From assembly GCA_947561715.1 (NCBI GenBank), contig OX387204.1, forward strand, positions 13,397,001-13,461,000: a DNA stretch of 64,000 nt. The letters are read 5' to 3'. Within the stretch, counting starts at the first letter, position 1; every line of letters starts with the position of its first letter. This document shows, in pieces, positions 1 to 42,510 of this stretch. Both the position numbers and the translations under genes were made by a program. This DNA is from Ascidia mentula. Taxonomy: Eukaryota > Chordata > Ascidiacea > Phlebobranchia > Ascidiidae. The notes below the pieces were generated by a model, which did no database searches, was not told the origin of the DNA, and was given only the letters and a program-made list of their open reading frames with translations.

Positions 1-3000
1 ACACCCCGTAGTGATATCCGGACGCCTTGTCGCTGCAAATGAGACAAACTTCGTTGCCATCCAGTTTCGGCGCGGGTCCTTTTTTCCGCTTTTTTCCTTT
101 TTCTGTGATCGAAAATCGTGATTTTTTTAGGCAAAAAGAAAATTAAGCCGAATATATGTTGAAAATAACCCGCAACTCATTTGCTGTAAACGCAACATTC
201 ATTTTACTTGAAGCAATTGAGGTTTATGTTTGTTTTTCTTTCGCGCTGTACGTTTCAACACTAGGACAACTACATACCTCCCTGTTCGCTGCCTGCGGGT
301 GATCTTAAAAACGATTCGAGGCCAACCGTCCAGTTTTGCATTGTCTCGGCTTTTTGCACTCCATCGTCACCTGTACAAACTTGCGGGCGTAAATTGTTTT
401 CGTTGGGGAAATATCGCACTTTATAGAAATTTACCTGTTGCCATTGTTTCAGGTGTTTTGTTTGGTGTGTAGACTTCGGCTATTTCTTGAACATTAATAG
501 ATTGTGTGCTGAAAACATTCACATGTTTTACACGAAAATCTGTATGAGTCGCGCCCGAACCACTTTCAATAACAGTTAAAACTTACTCGGAAACTTGGCA
601 TGGGGTCGTGGGCGTAGAGTTTGGATTCGGATGATGTGTTACTAATGTTCCACACTCGTTGGAATTGCTCTCAATACTTATTCGTGGACTTTCGACTTGC
701 TCAGGCTTTTTGAGTTGCTCCTGAGAATTGGGAACACACTGTTCTGGGTTCGACTGAACAAATCCACTGTCTGCGCCGGTCGTGAATGGACTCGTATGCA
801 TAGTGGACGAGATATGTGGGTCATGAATGGGATTGGTTGGGTACCCGCTAGTTTGAACCCCGGCAGTGGTGGCAATTGAACCTAACTGGCTGGAGAGACC
901 CAAGTAGTTTAATGCCGCATCGGAAAAAGTCGATAAGGTTGGAATATTTCCTGTAGTTGGAGTTGCAGGCAATGTTCCGGGCAGTTGTAAATTTAACTGG
1001 CCACCTGACAATGGCGGGAGGTTAGCAGCATTGTTAACATGGTTGCTAAGCAGTTGCTGGGCTACAGCTGTCAACGAGTGTGTATTGTTCTGTACAGGTG
1101 CATTGGTTTGCTGCTGTAATATAGGTACGTTATGCTGAATAGGACTGTGGACAGGCAGCCGAATTGCTGGGCTTGGGGCAATAACCTGGGCAGTCTGTGT
1201 TGTTGTTGCTTGCTGAAAAAGCAATATAATTTCACATTGTTTTTACAGATGGGCAAACTACAATTAAACAAGTTCAAACCTGGGCAATTGAGGCTTGGGT
1301 AGAGTTTGCTACTGGAATTGGAACCAGCATAAAAGCAGTTGCTGACGTTTGTTGGGTGCTGGTGGTAGCGACTGGCAGCTGTATTTGTGCAGTATTTTGC
1401 ACAACCTGAAAAACGTTCTTTTGCTGTTGACAATGCATAACTTGAAGATTAGTAATAATCTGCACTGATGAGACCTTTTAGGTCGAAACAGTGGCCATCT
1501 GTCTGCAGCTTATACACAATAATCTTAACCTTCTACGTTATATCCCAAGAAATGACATATTTTTTCCAACAGACATGAAAAGGAACTTACTTGATGAAAA
1601 GCTTGTGGCTGAGCAGCAGGAATTGTTTGCGCTTGTTGCACTGCAGAAAGTCCAATTGAATTTTGTCCCAACAAAAGCGGATTTACTGTCTGCGGTTGTA
1701 TAGTCTGTTGGTTCTGCTGAAAGTGTGGCACTAAAAACACAGAATATATATTACTAAATGTATTATGACTTCTCCCCAAACAAATTACAACAAAAAGAAA
1801 CACCAGTTAAAAATACTTGGCGTCTGCTAAATAAAAAAACTTATCAGTTCATTTAACCTATCAGGACATCCATAACATAAAAAAAAACTTACAGCGAAAT
1901 CTGTTCATTCTCTATGGTAACCAAAAAAACGAGTTCACGTTTTCACCTATGGCACCATTGGCATGAGGTATAAGATACCCAACTGAATCTTGTGGCAGAC
2001 TGACCAACTTATATATCGGTGGCATTTTGCCTTCCAAGCATAACATCGTAGTATGCCACCAAGGACTTAATAATTGACAGAAAACACACATTGGAGTTAA
2101 ATAATCTTTGGCATCGCGGCGCACTCTGATTGCCAACCTTTGCACTTCGATCTCGATAAACAAAACACAGACAAACTTTCCTAGGTGGGGTTACTTTAGG
2201 TTGAGAACTACAGTAACCCCCAAAATCTCAAACAGTCTCCAGGTAAGAAGTAAATCTGGGAACCTTATGTCGTGGTTCCAACTTCTTTAAAATTCAGTCC
2301 TAAAGCTTTTTTTTGTCTAACTTTAATTGCTTTCTTTATTATGCATATACCTATTTACACAAATGAAATATACCAAACTAAAAAGATATCCGTACGGAGA
2401 TTTTTCTTTATTAAATAAAAGCATTGGTATCTGTAAAATATTTCTACCACTGTGGCACATGTGCACACACAGTACTTTGTTAATTTAAAAACAAATAGAA
2501 CAGATTCTGAGTTTTCAGTTTATGTAGCATCCCCAATCCATGCTAAGAAGACCCACATAACAACAGTAATCCACTGCCAAGTACCATATTTATCAAACTT
2601 AATTTTAGTTATAGTACATGCATAGGCATATCCAGGGGCTTCAGGCAGTCAATAAACAACAACTGCCGTTTTTCATTGATAAATATCTTTGTCAATAGGC
2701 AGGTTGTTGCAATGACATGCAGTTTCCCTGTGTGCAAAGCCAATTTGTACGGTTGTTAAACTTGCCAGAAATATAAGCAATGTACTGTATCTTACAAAGT
2801 AATTGTATTCAAGACTAAACTACCGCAAAAAAACCATGTATTTTGTGGAGCTTGACCACAATAAACCTTTATTTCGCAGCAAAAAATCAGGAAACTGCCC
2901 CAAAATTGTTAACCCCTGGACTCGTCTGTGAATACATGTACTAAAACAGCATGTGTAATGGCGTAGTCTACAACACTGAGATATTAAGAATTCAATGAAA

Positions 3001-4068: not shown

Positions 4069-4874
4069 AATGGGATATTGGTGCTCTACCAACAATTAAA
4101 CAAAAAATTTAGTTGCATATATTTTGTTAAGCCAAAGAAAAAAGTTAATTGGTTAAAGAACCCTATTCAAGGCAATTAAAGTGCAAACTTACGATAAAAA
4201 CACTTGTAAGTTATTCCTTCGTGTATTAGAGAAATTGTACTAAATAATTCTCAGCGTTAAAAACCTTGCCCAATTATTCACATACTACGTAACGCAACTT
4301 GCAAGTGTGACGACAGGCCTGTCCATCAAACAAATGGGAATTGAACTTATTTACAGTTACCGAGTTACTGTAAAAATAAATGTATTGTTTGATAAAAACT
4401 GGTATAACATTTACTTCATTTTAAAACATGTCGCTACAATGTCCTTCTGACGTGCTCGTCAAACAATGTTTCTCATACATGGTTCTTTTACCAAACCATG
4501 ATAAAACAAACTTACGTTTATTTTTGAAGGATAAATTTTGTATTTTTTTACTGAAGCAATATTTCACTTTGATCCACACATATTCACACTTTAAAATACT
4601 TTGTAAATTTTGGAAAAAAAAATGTATCAGAACATCTTTTTCAATTCAAATTAAATTGTTTTTATTTGTTTTAAACTTCCTGAGTATATGACGAATGTAA
4701 AAACAACACATGTCAGCAGAGGAAGCCCGTAGCTAAAATGTGGGGGTGCTGCTTCAGAAATTTTTAGTCTTCAAACATAATATTGCTTAACCTGTACGAT
4801 CAACAATTGCCTAAAAGACGTAAAACGTGTTTGCTGACAGGGTAATATGTTCACATTTACGGAAAATACTACTA

Positions 4875-5198
4875 CACCGGGTCATAAAGTTTTTTCCAAA
4901 CTTGATCCACATATAATATGTAAAACAAAAATCAGCGCGAATTTATTGATTAGGCGTAAACAGGACAACCACCTGTTATTTTTGTTTATAAATTTGAGTT
5001 GAAATACTACACGAATTTGAAAACAAACAAAGAATCCGCCGGCGCAAAGAGTGAGTGTGGACCTGGCCTTAACCTATAGCAATTTGTGCGAATATTAACG
5101 CTACGATTTCGTGTAGTATGTCAACTCAAATTTATAAACAAAAATGGACCCGGCCTTATATGTGGCCAAGTTTGGAAAAAAAACTTTGTGACCCGGTG
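4875..5198. mobile_element. Palindromic MITE, mariner-like, TA target duplication
   Basis: 324 bp starting CACCGGGTCA and ending in its inverted complement; terminal inverted repeats run about 45 nt, and further inverted blocks inside make it nearly a full hairpin. TA on both flanks (4873-4874, 5199-5200). No ORF. It ends 28 bp before the left target duplication of the hammerhead array. Confidence 0.75.
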
Positions 5199-5479
5199 TA
5201 AAATGATCTTTCCATAAATAAATAATAAAAATAACAACAATAGCAGCTTTGCAATATTATGGCTTTTTTTGCACATATATTACATTGGTGTTTTTAGCCT
5301 TTTGCGCTATCGGTTTCCAAGCAGTTCCGTTTGGCCATAGTGCGCTCCACAGTGGTTCGTCGTCTCTGTTGTTCGGTACCTAGTATAGGGTACCCTGCAG
5401 ATCGACGTTGACCGAAAGGTACCACAAAGTGGAAACTAGTGTGCCTGCTAGTGTGAAAGCTAGCACAGTGCCACTCAAC

Positions 5480-5539
5480 AGCTGCACTGATGAGACCTTA
5501 CAGGTCGAAACAGTGCGTGTACACACCCTGTCTGCAGCT
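5480..5539 (+). ncRNA. Hammerhead ribozyme, array copy 1 (type I)
   Basis: Stem I: AGCUGCA (5480-5486) pairs perfectly with UGCAGCU (5533-5539). Core CUGAUGA follows; stem II GACC/GGUC is capped by UUACA, then the conserved GAAA. Stem III closes CAG with CUG and carries an inner GUG/CAC helix. The GUC cleavage triplet ends at 5532. All core nucleotides are present. Confidence 0.92.
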
Positions 5540-5770
5540 TTGCAATATTATGGCTTTTTTTGCACATATATTACATTGGTGTTTTTAGCCTTTTGCGCTA
5601 TCGGTTTCCAAGCAGTTCCGTTTGGCCATAGTGCGCTCCACAGTGGTTCGTCGTCTCTGTTGTTCGGTACCTAGTATAGGGTACCCTGCAGATCGACGTT
5701 GACCGAAAGGTACCACAAAGTGGAAACTAGTGTGCCTGCTAGTGTGAAAGCTAGCACAGTGCCACTCAAC

Positions 5771-5830
5771 AGCTGCACTGATGAGACCTTACAGGTCGAA
5801 ACAGTGCGTGTACACACCCTGTCTGCAGCT
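5771..5830 (+). ncRNA. Hammerhead ribozyme, array copy 2 (type I)
   Basis: Same sequence as copy 1, 291 bp downstream; predicted cleavage after 5823. Cleavage at copies 1 and 2 would release a unit-length 291-nt RNA that could be circularised. Confidence 0.92.
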
Positions 5831-6061
5831 TTGCAATATTATGGCTTTTTTTGCACATATATTACATTGGTGTTTTTAGCCTTTTGCGCTATCGGTTTCC
5901 AAGCAGTTCCGTTTGGCCATAGTGCGCTCCACAGTGGTTCGTCGTCTCTGTTGTTCGGTACCTAGTATAGGGTACCCTGCAGATCGACGTTGACCGAAAG
6001 GTACCACAAAGTGGAAACTAGTGTGCCTGCTAGTGTGAAAGCTAGCACAGTGCCACTCAAC

Positions 6062-6121
6062 AGCTGCACTGATGAGACCTTACAGGTCGAAACAGTGCGT
6101 GTACACACCCTGTCTGCAGCT
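6062..6121 (+). ncRNA. Hammerhead ribozyme, array copy 3 (type I)
   Basis: Same sequence as copies 1 and 2; predicted cleavage after 6114. The array ends just after its stem I 3' strand, where the right target duplication begins. Confidence 0.92.
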
Positions 6122-6534
6122 TTAAAAATAACAACGTTTTCCAACTTATTTGTATTTCTACCCAAGTTCAAAACCAGATAAGGATTGTGCTTAATTCTTG
6201 TATCATAAAGCAATGGTGATGCATGTAATTCAAATGCATTCAAACGAATCTAAATCCAAATGCTTCGACAGTTTTAGTGTATTTTTTTTTTTTTTATTTA
6301 ACGTCAAGTCAATTAACTCTGATGTTGTAAAAAGGCAGCAAAAATCAAAATGAATTTTGCGGAAAAAGGAGTCACATGCACACATTGTGATGACAGTCCT
6401 TTTGTACGAAAAATGTTGCCCATAGTGAAGAAAAAAATATCCTATATGCTCTAAAACCTTGCTGTGTACTGACTAAAGCGGTTGCAATCGTTTTTTGTTG
6501 TGGCAGAATCTATTTGAGTAAAACATTTTTCCAT

Positions 6535-15900: not shown

Positions 15901-18405
15901 TTCCATAACGAATAGGCGCGATTCAAAAATGTCTTGCGTACCTTTCTCTGTCGATTGCGAAAGTTAGCAGCGCAAAGAGGGTGACGATTATGCAGATCGC
16001 AGCCAGCGCGCATACAAAACCACGCAGCGCGCTCATCTCCTGCTGACCCAAGTACATGTTAGGGCATGGCGCGGTGCAATTTTCCAATCCCATGAAGCTG
16101 TACCTGCGATGTAAAAGAGAGTGAATAGTTATGCTATCCACGTTGTTCACTCGAGGCTAACTGTAGAAGTCAACGTTGAATGGAGTTTAATTGAACGGGT
16201 CGGAAGCCGCACAAAGTATTGGAATCATACAGTAATATCTTTGCCTAGGGTTTGAGAAAAATCCAATGATTTACGTAAAAAGTATTTGCTCGAATACAAA
16301 TTCTAGGCAGTAAATTAAATACTCAGTACACCACATAATATTGGGAAGCATGACGCAAGCCTTCGACGGACCGTTGTGGCCATACGCCCAGGCGAGAACA
16401 AATTTGCGCACCTAAAATTACAACTAGCGGGTCGCTTTCAAGCTTTAGGTCGGTGTGTATTAAGTAAACAGAACGGGGGACCTGGCATATATACCCTAGT
16501 GTACCCGCGCAGGTTAGATGCTCGGATAATCCTTTATTAACTGGGGATAATACGGCGGGCGGTGTAAGCTACGAGCGGCGCCATGCAACAAAACACCAAC
16601 CGACTATTGTTTGTCTACGTCTTGCTGCGCCCCCGCAACCTTTGGGGTTTATTTATTGGGTTAAACAGACTCAAATTTGCAGTTTTGTCAGTAAGCGTAT
16701 TGTTGATTGAAAACTCCATATAGTTTACCTCAGCTTAACTTGTTTATAGAGTCGACGTTTCACAAATCCCTTACATGCTTGAAAATCTTTAGAAAATCCT
16801 GCATAACCACGCTAGGACATCGTGCACAAAGAAGTGTCGATTTCAATTTTGTGCTTTAACGCGTGGTATGTTTCACGAAGCAAGTCCTCACTTGCTAATT
16901 GCAGGTTATGCGGTTTAATTCCTTTTAACGATTTGGCACAACTAAAGCCGTATAGCGAACATGTAGTCGTTGTTTATTAAGTAAATGCTGATGTCAGACT
17001 TTTTTGATTGGTCTGCCTAGCTTTGATTTCCTGTACTTTGTGAGTCGCAGTGAGGCCGATTTCTAAACTTTGTTTTTTGTCTGCAAACAATCGAGCAAAT
17101 AAATGTAAAGCGAAACGAAAAGCTAACATTTATCTCGATCAAAGACAAACATGAAAAGGCTGACATTTGAGTTGCAGGAATCTGGTGTTTTCTATTCAAG
17201 TGAGGGCTAAAGAAACCGGCCTTTTCCCAATAGTTAAATGTCACGTCATGCCTATCAAGCTAATTGGTATACGTACAAATTCGACATATATTTCCTACCC
17301 TGTGTGACTCGGTGGTGCACGAAGCTCTGCAGGACAGGAGACTCCGTAATCTCCATCCCCCGGCTCGCTCGACGTCCAGTTTTCCCTGATGGATCCCTCT
17401 CTATCCAACCGTACCAACGCCGGACCCACTACATCTTCTTCCGATGGCGGGATGCATACCTGTAAGGGAATGTGTAGGTTGACAAAAGATGAAAAGACAA
17501 ATGAAACTAGGGCGCTACGCCTCACCCAAAGTAAACCTCTCCAATTTGATGTATTGCCCCTAATAAAGACCACAAGGCGTTACCAAGAAACTGAAAGACA
17601 TTATATCTGTTCCGTGCGCAATCAGGGCGAAAAATGGGGTTGACAGGAAAGCTGTACCAATTAAGGCTTTTGAAAAGATTAATCCAAATCAAGAAAATAT
17701 AAACAAGCACAGAAATTTCTTCCTGGGTGTCAATCCTTTTGGTAATTTCATACAATGAGCACAATTAGGTTTGGCTTTTACATTGGTAATCTGGAATGAA
17801 AGCACTATAACTGTGCAAATGACCAACATCATATAAAAGCAAATACATACTTTCCCATTGTCGAGCAGGGCCTCCCCCCATATTAGCGACGAAGATCGGC
17901 TAACGACGTACATATCCGCGCTATCGTCCATAAATCCTTCGTCTTTGCGACGTCGTAATCTTCCCTTTGCTTTGGTCATCTTGGGCAGTGATTCGCACGC
18001 CAGTCCACCCGGCCATCGGATTCCGAACGTTTCCGAAACTTGCCGACAGTCATTGCGCACACGTTCACACAGTTCCCTGCAGGGTGGGACAACTCCGTGT
18101 CTTGTACACACCGGCGAGTGGACCGCACACAAATAAAGGTTTAAAAACTTTGAACAACTTGTAGCAATAAGAGGATGCAATGCGCTAAGTGACGTGGAAA
18201 CGTCTTCAGGTGAACGGTCATCAGCAAATGTTGGAAACGTTGTTAGGTTGTAGCGCCATTGAAAGCTGTTGCTACTTCCAGTGCTGGTGCATATAGGCGC
18301 GGATGTTTTTGTGCAAGTCCTGCTAAAATCCAACGCTTGAACGAATGAATGACGCAATACGGTAGCCACAGTAAACGTCGCGACGATATAACTCCACAAA
18401 TCCAT
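6985..18405 (-). CDS. FZD3/6: Frizzled 3/6-class Wnt receptor, complete (13 coding exons, 884 aa)
   Basis: Seven-pass plasma-membrane Wnt receptor; vertebrate FZD3/6 act mainly in planar cell polarity and axon guidance. Exons: 18405-17851, 17459-17299, 16103-15942, 15531-15420, 14781-14679, 12895-12713, 11367-11266, 10229-10111, 9851-9716, 9278-9146, 8797-8724, 8143-8009, 7664-6985. All phases agree. Signal peptide 1-24; cysteine-rich domain from C31, with VVPPCRELCERV and FGIRWP. TM1 follows APCPNMYL (exon 3); TM2 follows RYPERPI; later landmarks are GDNITGVCFVG, KFMLRIGVFS and the Dishevelled-binding KTxxxW motif as KTLDSW (about 580). FGIRWP, FMLRIGVFS and FWVASKKT favour the 3/6 class over FZD4, 5/8 or Smoothened. 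The cytoplasmic tail is about 296 residues, with acidic Ser/Thr and Lys/Pro stretches, PPPLPPP and a C-terminus ALSV. A 43-residue insert splits the last two cysteines of the Wnt-binding domain. An AG acceptor just upstream of the ATG (about 18460) suggests a 5' UTR intron or spliced leader. Confidence 0.96.
9380..9452 (-). repeat. Dispersed repeat, copy B
   Basis: Reverse-complement partner of 3005-3079, inside the Frizzled intron between 9716 and 9278. No ends or target duplication recognised. Confidence 0.6.
14058..14261. mobile_element. hAT-type MITE with 8-bp target duplication
   Basis: 204 bp with terminal inverted repeats CAGTGTTCCCCAACC / CAGTGATCCCCAACC (13 of 15 match). Flanked by an exact 8-bp duplication, TGTTAAAG, at 14050-14057 and 14262-14269. 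The CAGNG start and 8-bp duplication are hAT hallmarks. Non-coding; inside the Frizzled intron 14678-12896. Subterminal GGTGGTACGCG is itself repeated. Confidence 0.88.
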
Positions 18406-21400
18406 TGTGTTAAAAACTGACAGAACGCTACATCTTATGATATACGTCAAATGATTCTGCAACATAAAAATTTTGTTTATACAATCTAACAACGGGTGAT
18501 AATCAATATGACAACCGCAAAACCATTTCCTAATGACATTCCCATGGCGGATGTAAATGAAATAGGCCGCACTCACGATCAATTCCACAACTCTTGATTC
18601 AGCTGTGTGTGATCACAGTAGCGGAAAAGCATCCGCTCAGATTAAAAAACTCCCGCTGATTTCCAGCAGTGCAGCGCAAATTTGTTGACCCACATTCGAT
18701 TCGAGCTGACGGCCGTCAGTTAACTTGAATTAAATGTTGTGTTGATGCGCTCAACAACACATGGCAACAGCGTGTAATGACAGAAACTCGCGCGGTTAAT
18801 CGGATGACGATTTTCTCCCAGCGGACAAATTACGGTCAAGCAATTCGAGTGCATCTGGAAAGACGACAACATTCCGTTTTAGTAAAGACACTGCTGTTCT
18901 GAAGTTAACCTAATCTGTTGTTGTTTACTTGTTTTGCGGGTGGGCATGTTTTACCAAAGCAAATTATGATCACGCGTTCGCAACGCATTTACCGGTCGTT
19001 AGTCGTGTTACTGAAGCAGAAAAGAACTGAAAACCTCAATCTATCACAACCTGTTTGACTCTGGTTACTTCGTGGGCGCGGATGTAACACAACCACAGCT
19101 TGCTTCGTCCACTGAGCTCAGAACATTTACGACTGCCTCCCACTTTTACGACTGCGTTACAAACAAGCAACAAAGAGCACGCCTTGGACCTGCTGCAATG
19201 CTACACGTAGCTGAATTCTGACACTGATTTCTTCATTTTTCAAACAAGCATTAAACAGGATGTCTATCTTCCATACAAAAGACCACCAAAAAACAAACTG
19301 CTCACAGCGATGAGTCAGGACCAAGCTTTTACTTCGTGTCTCCATGCGTCTTAGTAACTGCGTTCATAAGTGCCATTCAGTCGCTGTATTCTTGGTCGAG
19401 TGTGCCCTCCAAACGCGAACAATGCTTGTGAAAAGCTTGGCTTTGCGGCGAAAATGCCGCGAGAAATAATCCGTACTCCACGCGGGCCAACCGTTACAAT
19501 CAAATTAGTCGCGCGACTTTTGAGTCCACAATACGCAGCAGTGTTTTGTCTTCTTCGGTAGCCGGCGTTTTGACGTCAAACTCCTGTGAAAAGCTGTCGT
19601 TGTTTGATCTCACAACACAGCGCCCCGAACGCTAGGTTTTTACTGGTAAATTCTTTTGTGCCATTCAAGGGTGCTTGCACCCTGTCTGTTCACTGAACTT
19701 GAGATTTCTGGTCTAAACCAAACCCCACTAAGCTCTGCAGAAAACTCAAACCTGTTGTTACAGGCTTGACGTATTTAACAACATAAAGTTCAGCCCCATG
19801 GAGCAAAAGTCAATCCGATTTTCTTACAGTCTGTTTCGACCGTAGTATATTCGCCTCGGGGGCGCAATAAAGCTACGGCCGCGCCGATCATTAATTACGG
19901 TTGTAAAAGTATGGTAAGTAACTCGCTCATGGGATAATCTGCCGTCATAAGTCATATGTCACTCAGTTAATGGGTAGATTTGTATAAGTATACCGGCCAT
20001 GGGTGAGTGCTGTTCCGCAAGACAGCTGCAAAGGTATGCATTCCCCATTAACATTAATGGGCCTACTGTGCGTTTACAACAATCTTACATGAACGAAGCA
20101 TTATCGTAATAAAAAGTTTTTTTGCGAACAACAATTTGGTATGTCGTTTCCTAAAAAGCATGTTACAACACGTTCAAACAATAATGTATAGATCATACCT
20201 TTCGGCACAGCTTCAGTAAACCGATCTTCCGACACACATTTGTACAAACAACTGATAATAAAAGCAGCTACAATCGTCCGGAAGAACAAAAATAAGTTCC
20301 AGCAGAAGAATAAACAAACTTTCTCACATACAGGCAGACAGGCACACACTTGCGCATAAACTTCGCAATTTAGAGAGTGTTATATAGCTATCGGCGCGAC
20401 CGTGTTGACATATTGCTATTGAAGTGCAGTAGAGCGACATCCAATAATAAGCGGTGGAATTTCAATGGTATAATGCCGCCACAATAGAAAACAGCTACGG
20501 TGAACTAGCAATGTTTGGCTGCGTGCCGTTTTATCGTACATAGAAATCACCCTATTAAAATCTAAGTTAGATCGAAAATAAGTTAACGCCTTCTGTTTGG
20601 GACTGAAGCGTAGACTTCCAGATAACTCGTTGGCTTGGCATTGTTAAAAGACATACACAGTAGGTTGCACGTGAAAGCAGGATCGGCGGTTCGCAAACAT
20701 GATCACCTGCGGAATGAAATTGCTCTTTCTTTTAATTTGTTGCCCGAGGAAGCACGTAATATCCGTAACCAAGACCCGCCCTAAAGGTGGTGAAACGTTT
20801 CTACATGTGCAATGAACTTATGAGCTTTTGTTTAGTGCAGTGGTTCTTAACCGGTGGGAAGTGGGATAGAAGAGAAAAATGGTTAAGAACCACTGACTTT
20901 AGTGCTTGGGTTCTACATAAAACGTCAAAAATTACAAGTGATAATGAACTAAGTGTGCTACGCGTGACTGGATAGCATGCTTAAACACATTTGTGCAGTA
21001 ATCTACCCAAGATCAAGCAATATTCGACAAAAGTTGTTGGAGTTTAGGTATACATCGCATATCCAAACAAAGAACATCGCTGTAATAATATGGTATTCCG
21101 GCAAATGACAGCCCTGTAACTGGTACACTGCTGTGTTTGTTTGCTTAGCATAACAGCAGGAGTGTATCTTTCAACGTATAGAAAAGCAACCGATTAGAAA
21201 AGCTATCATACAACTAAAAACAAGACGAATACTCGTGCATGCATCACGACTGTTAAAAGATGGTAGTGTCATAAACGTATCTAAAGCAAAAACATGTTTT
21301 ATGACGCTTGGCTCTTTAAACTTATACAAACAATCATTATTACCTCTGAGAAGCAGTCGTTACCCATGATCTTAGACTTTCAATGCGCCGATAAGATAAA

Positions 21401-40557: not shown

Positions 40558-41240
40558 GGAAGAGTTATAAAATGTGCTTCCTCATTTTATGTTGGTGGGA
40601 AGAGCATTTTTAACTGTAACAAATCTGCTTTATTTTGGACAACAGCTTGGTTTTAGAAATGCTTAAAATTCAAGTAATATATGTCATGGGTAAGTGCATG
40701 GATATGGTAAAGTTTTTGTTAACACAGCGTGCAGGTTTAGCTTTTAAGAGTGGTGCTGTTTTATAATTGCAAGACTTTAATTACAAATAAATGTTTTAAA
40801 ATTCAGTAACTCAACATTGCATTTGATGTTGGGAACCGATATTTTGTCAGATAAACCCAAAAACTACTGATGTTGTGTGCCATGTTTTTTCTGCTCTCAT
40901 TACGAGCTTGTTGTCTCTGTAGCAGTGAATATCTTGTCGCTTGTGCGCATAACTAGACTTGATTATTTGTGTCGATCTAGGAGTTGTGTCGCAACTAACA
41001 GAATTGGAGGTATGTCACAACTTAGTTTGTGTTGAGCTCTTGCTCAAATAACAAAGTTTAAGAGTTTACTGCGCGAGTTGCTATTGCGATCAAATCTGTT
41101 TGCACTGCGGAGACATGAACGTTTGGCAGACATTTTAACCACAAATGGACAGAAACAAAGTCTGTGGAGCGTCACAGCCGTTTGTTGCTTTTACTTTTGC
41201 ATAGTTGTAACCGGAATTAGTTCGGCGAACAGGCAATGCT

Positions 41241-41427
41241 GCCTAACGTTCAGAGAGCGAGATGTTAACAGTCTAAACAAATAACCTCGGCCGACAAAAC
41301 CCAAACTGCGCACCTGCGCATTGACGACCTACCCCCAGTTCGTCGAATAAGAAATAATGCCTAACGTACAGAGGGCGGGATGTTAACAGTCGAAACCAAT
41401 AGCCTTGGCTTACAAAACCCAAACTGC
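41241..41427 (+). repeat. Two-copy direct duplication, 118-bp spacing
   Basis: Blocks 41241-41309 and 41359-41427 align along their length (GCCTAACGT, GATGTTAACAGTC and ACAAAACCCAAACTGCG shared) with scattered mismatches. Function unknown. Confidence 0.7.
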
Positions 41428-42510
41428 GGACTTGCGGCCAAGGCAGCTACTTTTCCATTTAAAAGGACAGTAATGCGCCAAAAGTTTGAAACGCTAAATG
41501 ATAAGAACACGATTAAATCAACATTCGTTCTGACAGGACACGAGACATTACAATACTCTATAAAGAAATTTGACCTCCACAAAAAAATACCTGTAATGAA
41601 AACAACCGCGATCTACCATCAACCTCTTCCTAACCACCACAAGAGAACTGCCGCAGGTTTGCCACTCATCACTTCTTCCGCCTAAAACCCGATCAATCAG
41701 AGTACTACGCATTTGCAATGCAACCAAAAGTACGCAAGCGTTGTGGAATTAAACATGAATAATAAAACAAATAACGATGAACGAAAAGTTTTTTCCCAAT
41801 GGGGAAATGTAGATGATCATGTGACACAGGTTGTTGCCTGTCAGCGTCACTACGAATAATGCAGTTCTCTGGGCCGTGTTTTCGAACTTTATTCAAAGAC
41901 CTTTCAAATTCCGTTAAGCGCCTGTGGGAACGATCTTGTTTATTACTCGTGCCGCTCCATGTCGATGTCCTTAAATAAAGCTTCTGCCCTCTTTCGGAAA
42001 TCTTACCTTCCAATCCTTCGTTTTTTCGAGTCTTCCTTTTTCCTATATTTTGAACTCCGGGAATGAAACGATACGCAATTGCGTCATTTCCGACTCGCAG
42101 TGTTGTGATTGAAATAAATAGATTTGGCAATTCCATCGTTCAAATGATGATTTCCTAGGTCGAGCATGAGAGATGCATACGGCATTCAGCTTTATAATCG
42201 CTTCACATCACAAAAGTAATCAAGCACTGCAGAATAGCATTGATTCACGTGTTCTGGTTTCACTTGATTAAATATAAACACCCAAATGTGTGACGTATTC
42301 AACGCAAGAAAGAAGGAAAGTGGGATGAACTTTCTTTCGTAGACCACAAATTATTGTTAGAGACAGAAATAAAGTTTAAAGGTACGTTTCAAATCTTTAG
42401 GCAATTCCTTCGACTAAATGGCACTCGCCGTGAGCGTACAAACAGCCTTTTTAATAGGGATTTGAAAACACACCTAAGATTTGGTCTCCGCCGAAACAAA
42501 TACCTTCAGT

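Follow-up and report, generated by a model that had tools for sequence, protein, structure and literature searches.

Which enzyme spreads the retrozymes of animals, that of LINEs or that of Penelope-like elements (PLEs), is a question raised in several papers (PMC7229834, PMC7761336, and PMC8969392), which, like the others cited below, are drawn on here in part. Animal retrozymes should be mobilised by non-LTR elements, either LINEs or PLEs, with PLEs as a strong candidate (PMC7229834), and mobilisation by PLEs is described as likely or possible rather than shown (PMC7761336 and PMC8969392). The same question is posed by a tandem hammerhead array of the ascidian Ascidia mentula, located in a stretch of 64,000 nucleotides of contig OX387204.1 that was analysed as a whole (the window). 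The ends of an insertion provide a test for the mobilising enzyme that needs only sequence and is applicable to any retrozyme-bearing genome. From these ends, the array is very probably a recent, non-autonomous retrozyme insertion that passed through a circular RNA and was made by a PLE enzyme at two start sites. The mobiliser is left open in the consulted parts of PMC7229834, whereas it is supported here by a shared insertion anatomy.

The array and its hammerheads

The array at 5243-6123 is the only one called there by Tandem Repeats Finder (period 291, 3.0 copies, 100% matches), and its three plus-strand units at 5243..5533, 5534..5824, and 5825..6115 are identical to each other at 291 of 291 positions. 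They are followed by the leading 8 bases of a further unit (6116..6123). With u1 defined as the G of GCAGCTTT and the hammerhead cut placed between u290 and u291, the 3′ end of the insertion falls at u8, or at u7 if one T is assigned to the flanking duplication. This target-site duplication, AAAAATAACAAC, occupies 5227..5238 on the left and is repeated exactly at 6124..6135; it measures 12 bp, or 13 bp when the T before 5227 is counted. Between the left duplication and the array lie four bases, AATA (5239-5242), which equal the reverse complement of u36-39. An earlier, sequence-only reading had recognised the array and given its span as 5239..6122; the array stands, but its limits do not, since AATA lies outside the unit and the end is at 6123.

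Three type I hammerheads are found on the plus strand at 5480..5539 (core 5487, predicted cut after 5532), 5771..5830 (core 5778, predicted cut after 5823), and 6062..6121 (core 6069, predicted cut after 6114). Stems I, II, and III consist of 7, 5, and 4 bp, respectively, and cleavage is predicted between GTC and TGC, which bears out the earlier claim of complete type I hammerheads with a 7-bp stem I and a GUC triplet in three 291-bp units. The descriptor (CTGANGA core, stem II, GAA, stem III closed by A-U, H17, and a stem I of at least 5 bp) matched four times in the 64-kb window and not once in 100 random windows with the same dinucleotide frequencies. Its fourth match, at 1465, had been absent from the earlier reading and led to a second family (family 2). 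In the Rfam search, the array hammerheads gave no match at the gathering threshold, with sub-threshold matches to Hammerhead_3 (24.9 bits, threshold 48.5) and RAGATH-1-hammerhead (28.3, threshold 56.3), and the identification therefore rests on the descriptor and on conservation across the two families. Release of unit-length RNAs had also been foreseen; three consecutive hammerheads would release two such 291-nt monomers, not three.

The array hammerhead alone (63 nt) adopts the hammerhead shape as its minimum-energy structure. The family-2 hammerhead alone prefers another fold (-18.0 versus -15.7 for the active fold). Once flanking sequence is included, the active folds of the two families lie 1.7 and 1.4 kcal/mol above the respective optimum; tertiary contacts are counted in none of these comparisons. 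The predicted circle of the 291-nt unit is strongly self-paired (circular MFE -94.3, shuffled mean -78.2, z -3.37), as is that of family 2 (z -3.55); in neither family is the hammerhead part of the predicted minimum-energy circle, and tertiary contacts lie outside these energies. The stem III loop contains a self-complementary stretch in both families, with GTGTACAC at 5517-5524 (also 5808 and 6099) and TGGCCA at 1492-1497. The loop sequences differ despite this common property, and dimeric hammerheads are a possibility.

No stop-to-stop frame of at least 150 aa is present in 5243-6123, and an ORF with reverse transcriptase and GIY-YIG is thus absent. The tandem type I array of 291-bp units resembles the published animal non-LTR retrozymes (Cervera and de la Pena 2020, PMC7229834), which are described in the consulted parts of that paper with a type I hammerhead, tandem units of 170-400 bp, no protein found, strong predicted self-pairing, and co-existing PLEs. 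The GC content of the window unit, 47.8%, is below 50% but above 45%, both figures being taken from the same paper. The assignment to the animal non-LTR retrozymes is supported, as is the earlier remark that this class is already established, so that the array is known as a kind. Plant LTR retrozymes, as far as described in the excerpts of PMC7229834 and PMC7761336, are likewise retroelements with a hammerhead-processed circular RNA, the circle being putative in our case. However, they carry a type III hammerhead, LTRs, a tRNA primer site, and 4-bp duplications, whereas the window array is of type I with a 12-13-bp duplication.

Two dispersed families and the ends of their insertions

The sequence-only reading had called for a search for further copies, and a dispersed family was found. 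In the genome of 196 Mb, with nine contigs of 15-28 Mb, family 1 (291-bp unit) comprises at least 40 loci, the best 40 of 1815 loose candidates having been scored; this set consists of the window array and L009-L047, covers all nine large contigs, and includes many copies with ~12-bp duplications. Because the family is dispersed and a 12-13-bp target-site duplication borders the window copy, the window array is most likely a retrotransposed insertion. Family 2, for which the best 40 of 2021 candidates were scored, has a 285-bp unit with a different body and nearly the same hammerhead. The two units align over the hammerhead at 92.5% of 40 bases; outside it, they align weakly over one 58-base stretch and the remaining matches are short, the bodies being mostly unalignable. 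The motif is kept in 65 of the 76 full-length hammerheads across the 40 family-1 loci. A conserved ribozyme in changing bodies is the pattern that selection on self-cleavage would leave. A degenerate hammerhead-like sequence was also seen at ~120-175 of L077, in the flank of a family-2 locus.

The array had been called young, and this is supported by sequence comparison: the units differ from each other at no position, and L009, the nearest of the 40 loci, is one substitution away. This substitution is common to all 11 full units of L009 (seven minus and four plus), one of which additionally has a 2-base insertion. A54 is present in all three window units and absent from every other of the 40 loci covering position 54, while T54, the common state, is found in all 11 full L009 units of both arms.

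At many loci, a minus-strand run of units meets a plus-strand run with the 5′ ends inward, both outer ends being 3′ ends. These outer ends cluster at two positions shortly beyond the ribozyme cut, ~28 nt apart, which are referred to as short (S) and long (L); the 3′ end of the window insertion is at the S site. We scored 38 palindromes, 18 of family 1 and 20 of the at least 23 family-2 palindromes among the matches listed, with the ends defined by the duplication whenever one was present; L034 and L040 (both strands) and L026 (a detached piece) were left out. The combination of one S and one L end is strictly present in 32 of 38 and nearly so in two, four break the rule, and none of the 38 is S+S or L+L. 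In family 2, 19 of 20 palindromes combine an end at u12-18 with one at u39-48, and in family 1, 13 of 18 combine an end at u5-14 with one at u32-45. The short end lies at u0 or u2 in L023 and L037 of family 1. The exceptions have one end inside the hammerhead (L121/L122 and L036) or one end at u73 or u110 with no duplication (L046 and L015). L033 obeys the rule but has no duplication, and L077 and L040, read by eye, each show one S and one L end with a 12-bp duplication.

Duplications are present in 35 of the 38 palindromes and are typically 12 bp long (12 bp in 19, 13 bp in six, 14 bp in four, 11 bp in two, and 8, 9, 15, and 16 bp in one each; none in three). Those exceeding 12 bp may have been lengthened by chance, and L009 has an AT repeat as its duplication. 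Duplications of at least 7 bp were found in 35 of 38 true pairs versus 255 of 1406 mispaired flanks, and those of at least 9 bp in 34 of 38 versus 23 of 1406. Several 5′ ends are located near the ribozyme cut, namely at u1 in the window, u291 in L029, u290 in L020 and L032, and u291 at the inner end of L030. An enrichment of 5′ ends at the cut stays suggestive because stem I is near-palindromic.

The variants within the arms provide information on the template. Five private variants in four loci, one each in L014, L034, and L036 and two in L018, are common to both arms, indicating that both arms came from the same template sequence in these loci. Among 88 private variants at positions covered at least twice, six are common to all copies and 82 are not; later mutation would explain the latter. 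A circle copied repeatedly would fit best as the template.

Penelope-like elements of the same genome and the putative mobilising enzyme

A GIY-YIG search of the genome gave 121 matches (best 150 of 382 candidates scored), and the two PLE ORFs that were checked both carry RVT_1 and GIY-YIG. Minimal hammerhead-like motifs can be read 3′ of PLE ORFs. They rest on motif reading because no hammerhead was reported when six PLE/retrozyme loci were compared with Rfam at E up to 0.5, not even for L077 with its family-2 ones. Neighbouring GIY-YIG matches within 6 kb form 17 pairs in the (-,+) order, none in the (+,-) order, and six on the same strand, whereas the corresponding counts in the controls are 0, 0, and 6 for 150 LINE endonuclease matches and 0, 2, and 7 for 150 LTR integrase matches. 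The 14 PLE palindromes examined comprise L080, L083, and 12 of the 17 (-,+) pairs, and each of them combines a short with a long outer end. In 12 of the 14, duplications of 12-14 bp and ends 28-44 nt apart were found by script. For the palindrome at C69:12190k, the script picked a satellite repeat and the duplication AAGCTTTATTAT was read by eye; for L080, no duplication of at least 7 bp was found by script. A run of five PLE matches at L090 (C67:6136500-6143500), two minus and three plus with a spacing of 2870 bp, is built like the retrozyme locus L009, and its members are 100% identical where compared, suggesting a very recent array. The search of the PLEs of this genome found none with the S-L sequence of the retrozyme; the tails of PLEs differ in how far they fold into hairpins, and no convincing counterpart was found in the retrozyme. 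In the PLE copies L079 and L086, 20 kb apart, a degenerate canonical hammerhead was seen at 944-1002 (-), ~300 bp downstream of the PLE's own minimal hammerhead.

The head-to-head order, the S and L ends, the 12-bp duplication, and a hammerhead just upstream are shared with PLEs, and these features tie the retrozymes to the Penelope machinery. Likewise, PLEs with GIY-YIG are described, in the consulted parts of PMC11167929 and PMC3846280, with a head-to-head arrangement, duplications, hammerheads, and an optional 3′ tail of ~30-40 bp on one inverted arm. In rotifer PLEs, head-to-head is the most frequent order, a 31-bp tail is optionally found at one inverted repeat, and duplications are 8-10 bp long (PMC3846280), as opposed to typically 12 bp here. 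With a purified PLE protein, both strands are cut and extended, and synthesis begins at two neighbouring positions within the RNA, in agreement with the genomic 'tail' called unique to PLEs; in vitro, the PLE was inserted without hammerhead cleavage, and the start site did not differ by strand (PMC11167929, in part). The asymmetry of a single tail is already known in PLEs, and in retrozymes it is apparently new, no report of a PLE tail in retrozymes having been found among the publications listed. In contrast to PLEs, the retrozyme has no long open frame and has a canonical hammerhead with stem III, the PLEs of this genome having minimal ones. The retrozyme works like a PLE passenger and is not itself an autonomous PLE.

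A route through this machinery could be as follows, with cleavage, circularity, and the protein as the parts that we infer. Tandem retrozyme copies would be transcribed, and each hammerhead would cut after GUC to free a 291-nt RNA, which would be ligated into a circle as in published animal retrozymes. The PLE reverse transcriptase/GIY-YIG endonuclease would bind this RNA near the ligated hammerhead junction and cut both target strands, leaving the 12-bp duplication. The cDNAs would be primed from the cut strands at S (~u5-18) and L (~u32-48), one site per strand, may make one or more turns of the circle, and would be joined head to head into palindromes. A very short arm would then give an apparent one-way tandem such as the window array, whose second arm has 4 nt at most. 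AATA at 5239-5242 is suggestive in this regard, as it could represent a second cDNA that was started at the L site and went no further than 4 nt; the window copy might then, more tentatively, be an S+L insertion with one vestigial arm. Short second arms do occur, since L040 has one of ~16 nt (read by eye). Points against this route are the lack of an S-L or tail-hairpin match in the PLE search, the four exceptional palindromes and L033, the 82 variants not common to all copies, the in vitro behaviour of the published PLE, and the predicted folds in which the hammerhead is absent or disfavoured.

It is highly improbable that a LINE machinery (APE-type and poly(A)-primed) inserted the retrozyme and formed the palindromes by twin priming. 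The genome does contain LINE endonucleases with long open frames, and twin priming does make inverted insertions; however, it inverts the 5′ part and retains one 3′ end, whereas both outer ends here are 3′ ends at two fixed sites. Moreover, no consistent poly(A) tail is displayed at the retrozyme ends inspected, and the LINE endonuclease control is devoid of opposite-strand pairs within 6 kb. We give equally little credence to ordinary satellite DNA spread by unequal crossing over with the hammerhead as a passenger. The units are indeed tandem and identical, and local homogenisation would likewise carry A54 into all three of them, but neither the spread of the copies, many of them bounded by ~12-bp duplications, over all nine large contigs nor the near-identity of the hammerhead between families with mostly unalignable bodies is in keeping with such a satellite.

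Fold-back self-priming of the cDNA, proposed for rotifer PLEs by authors who inferred it from junction palindromes (PMC3846280, in part), agrees with the head-to-head symmetry and is perhaps a little less improbable than these. It would give one 3′ start per insertion, yet the arms start at distinct S and L sites; most insertions are bounded by duplications, and the 5′ ends of the arms look, by reading, like unrelated positions. A linear, uncut multimer in place of the circle is unlikely, but deserves more weight than the other alternatives. The insertion of a PLE in vitro needs no hammerhead cleavage (PMC11167929, in part), and transcription could run through genomic tandem copies. The single haplotype per array in the window and L009 argues for one circle copied repeatedly, although a homogeneous array would equally give this result.

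Short arms, bare hammerheads, and neighbouring sequences

The fourth descriptor match of the window is a bare family-2 hammerhead of 56 bp at 1462..1517 on the plus strand (core 1465, predicted cut after 1503), flanked by 8-bp repeats AATAATCT at 1454-1461 and 1518-1525. Among the 20 loci L058-L077, which were chosen for their likeness to this bare hammerhead and include the near-duplicates L065 and L066, eight likewise start the plus arm at the 5′ strand of stem I. A short opposite arm, read by eye, joins at stem I in L060, L065/L066, and L071, where a 7-nt complement is offered. We propose stem I as the joining site for short cDNA arms.

Insertion by the PLE enzyme could be extended to a wider reading, for which we see about even chances: animal retrozymes would be SINE-like PLE passengers, for which one complex extends both DNA ends from two neighbouring starts on a hammerhead-made circle, and joining at stem I yields the bare 56-bp insertions. 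If true, each insertion records both start sites, and the joining of short arms at stem I would explain solo hammerheads in animal genomes. The insertion ends also constrain PLE integration: each DNA strand has a single start, the stagger is 12 bp, and at some loci the same template sequence served both arms. The question of the mobiliser is approachable with an existing biochemical assay as well.

Other elements were observed in the window. A MITE-like element with inverted ends (ACACCGGGTCA...) is located at 4874-5199 and terminates 27 bp upstream of the array's left duplication. The region 42157-64000 is composed of tandem units of ~4.58 kb, mostly of 94-98% identity and with shorter internal repeats, and one 171-aa frame of this repeat gave no Pfam domain. 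A 118-bp tandem repeat (1.8 copies, 83% match) is found at 41219-41436, and an open frame at 17689-18612 (-) contains a Frizzled-type Fz domain (E 7e-21).
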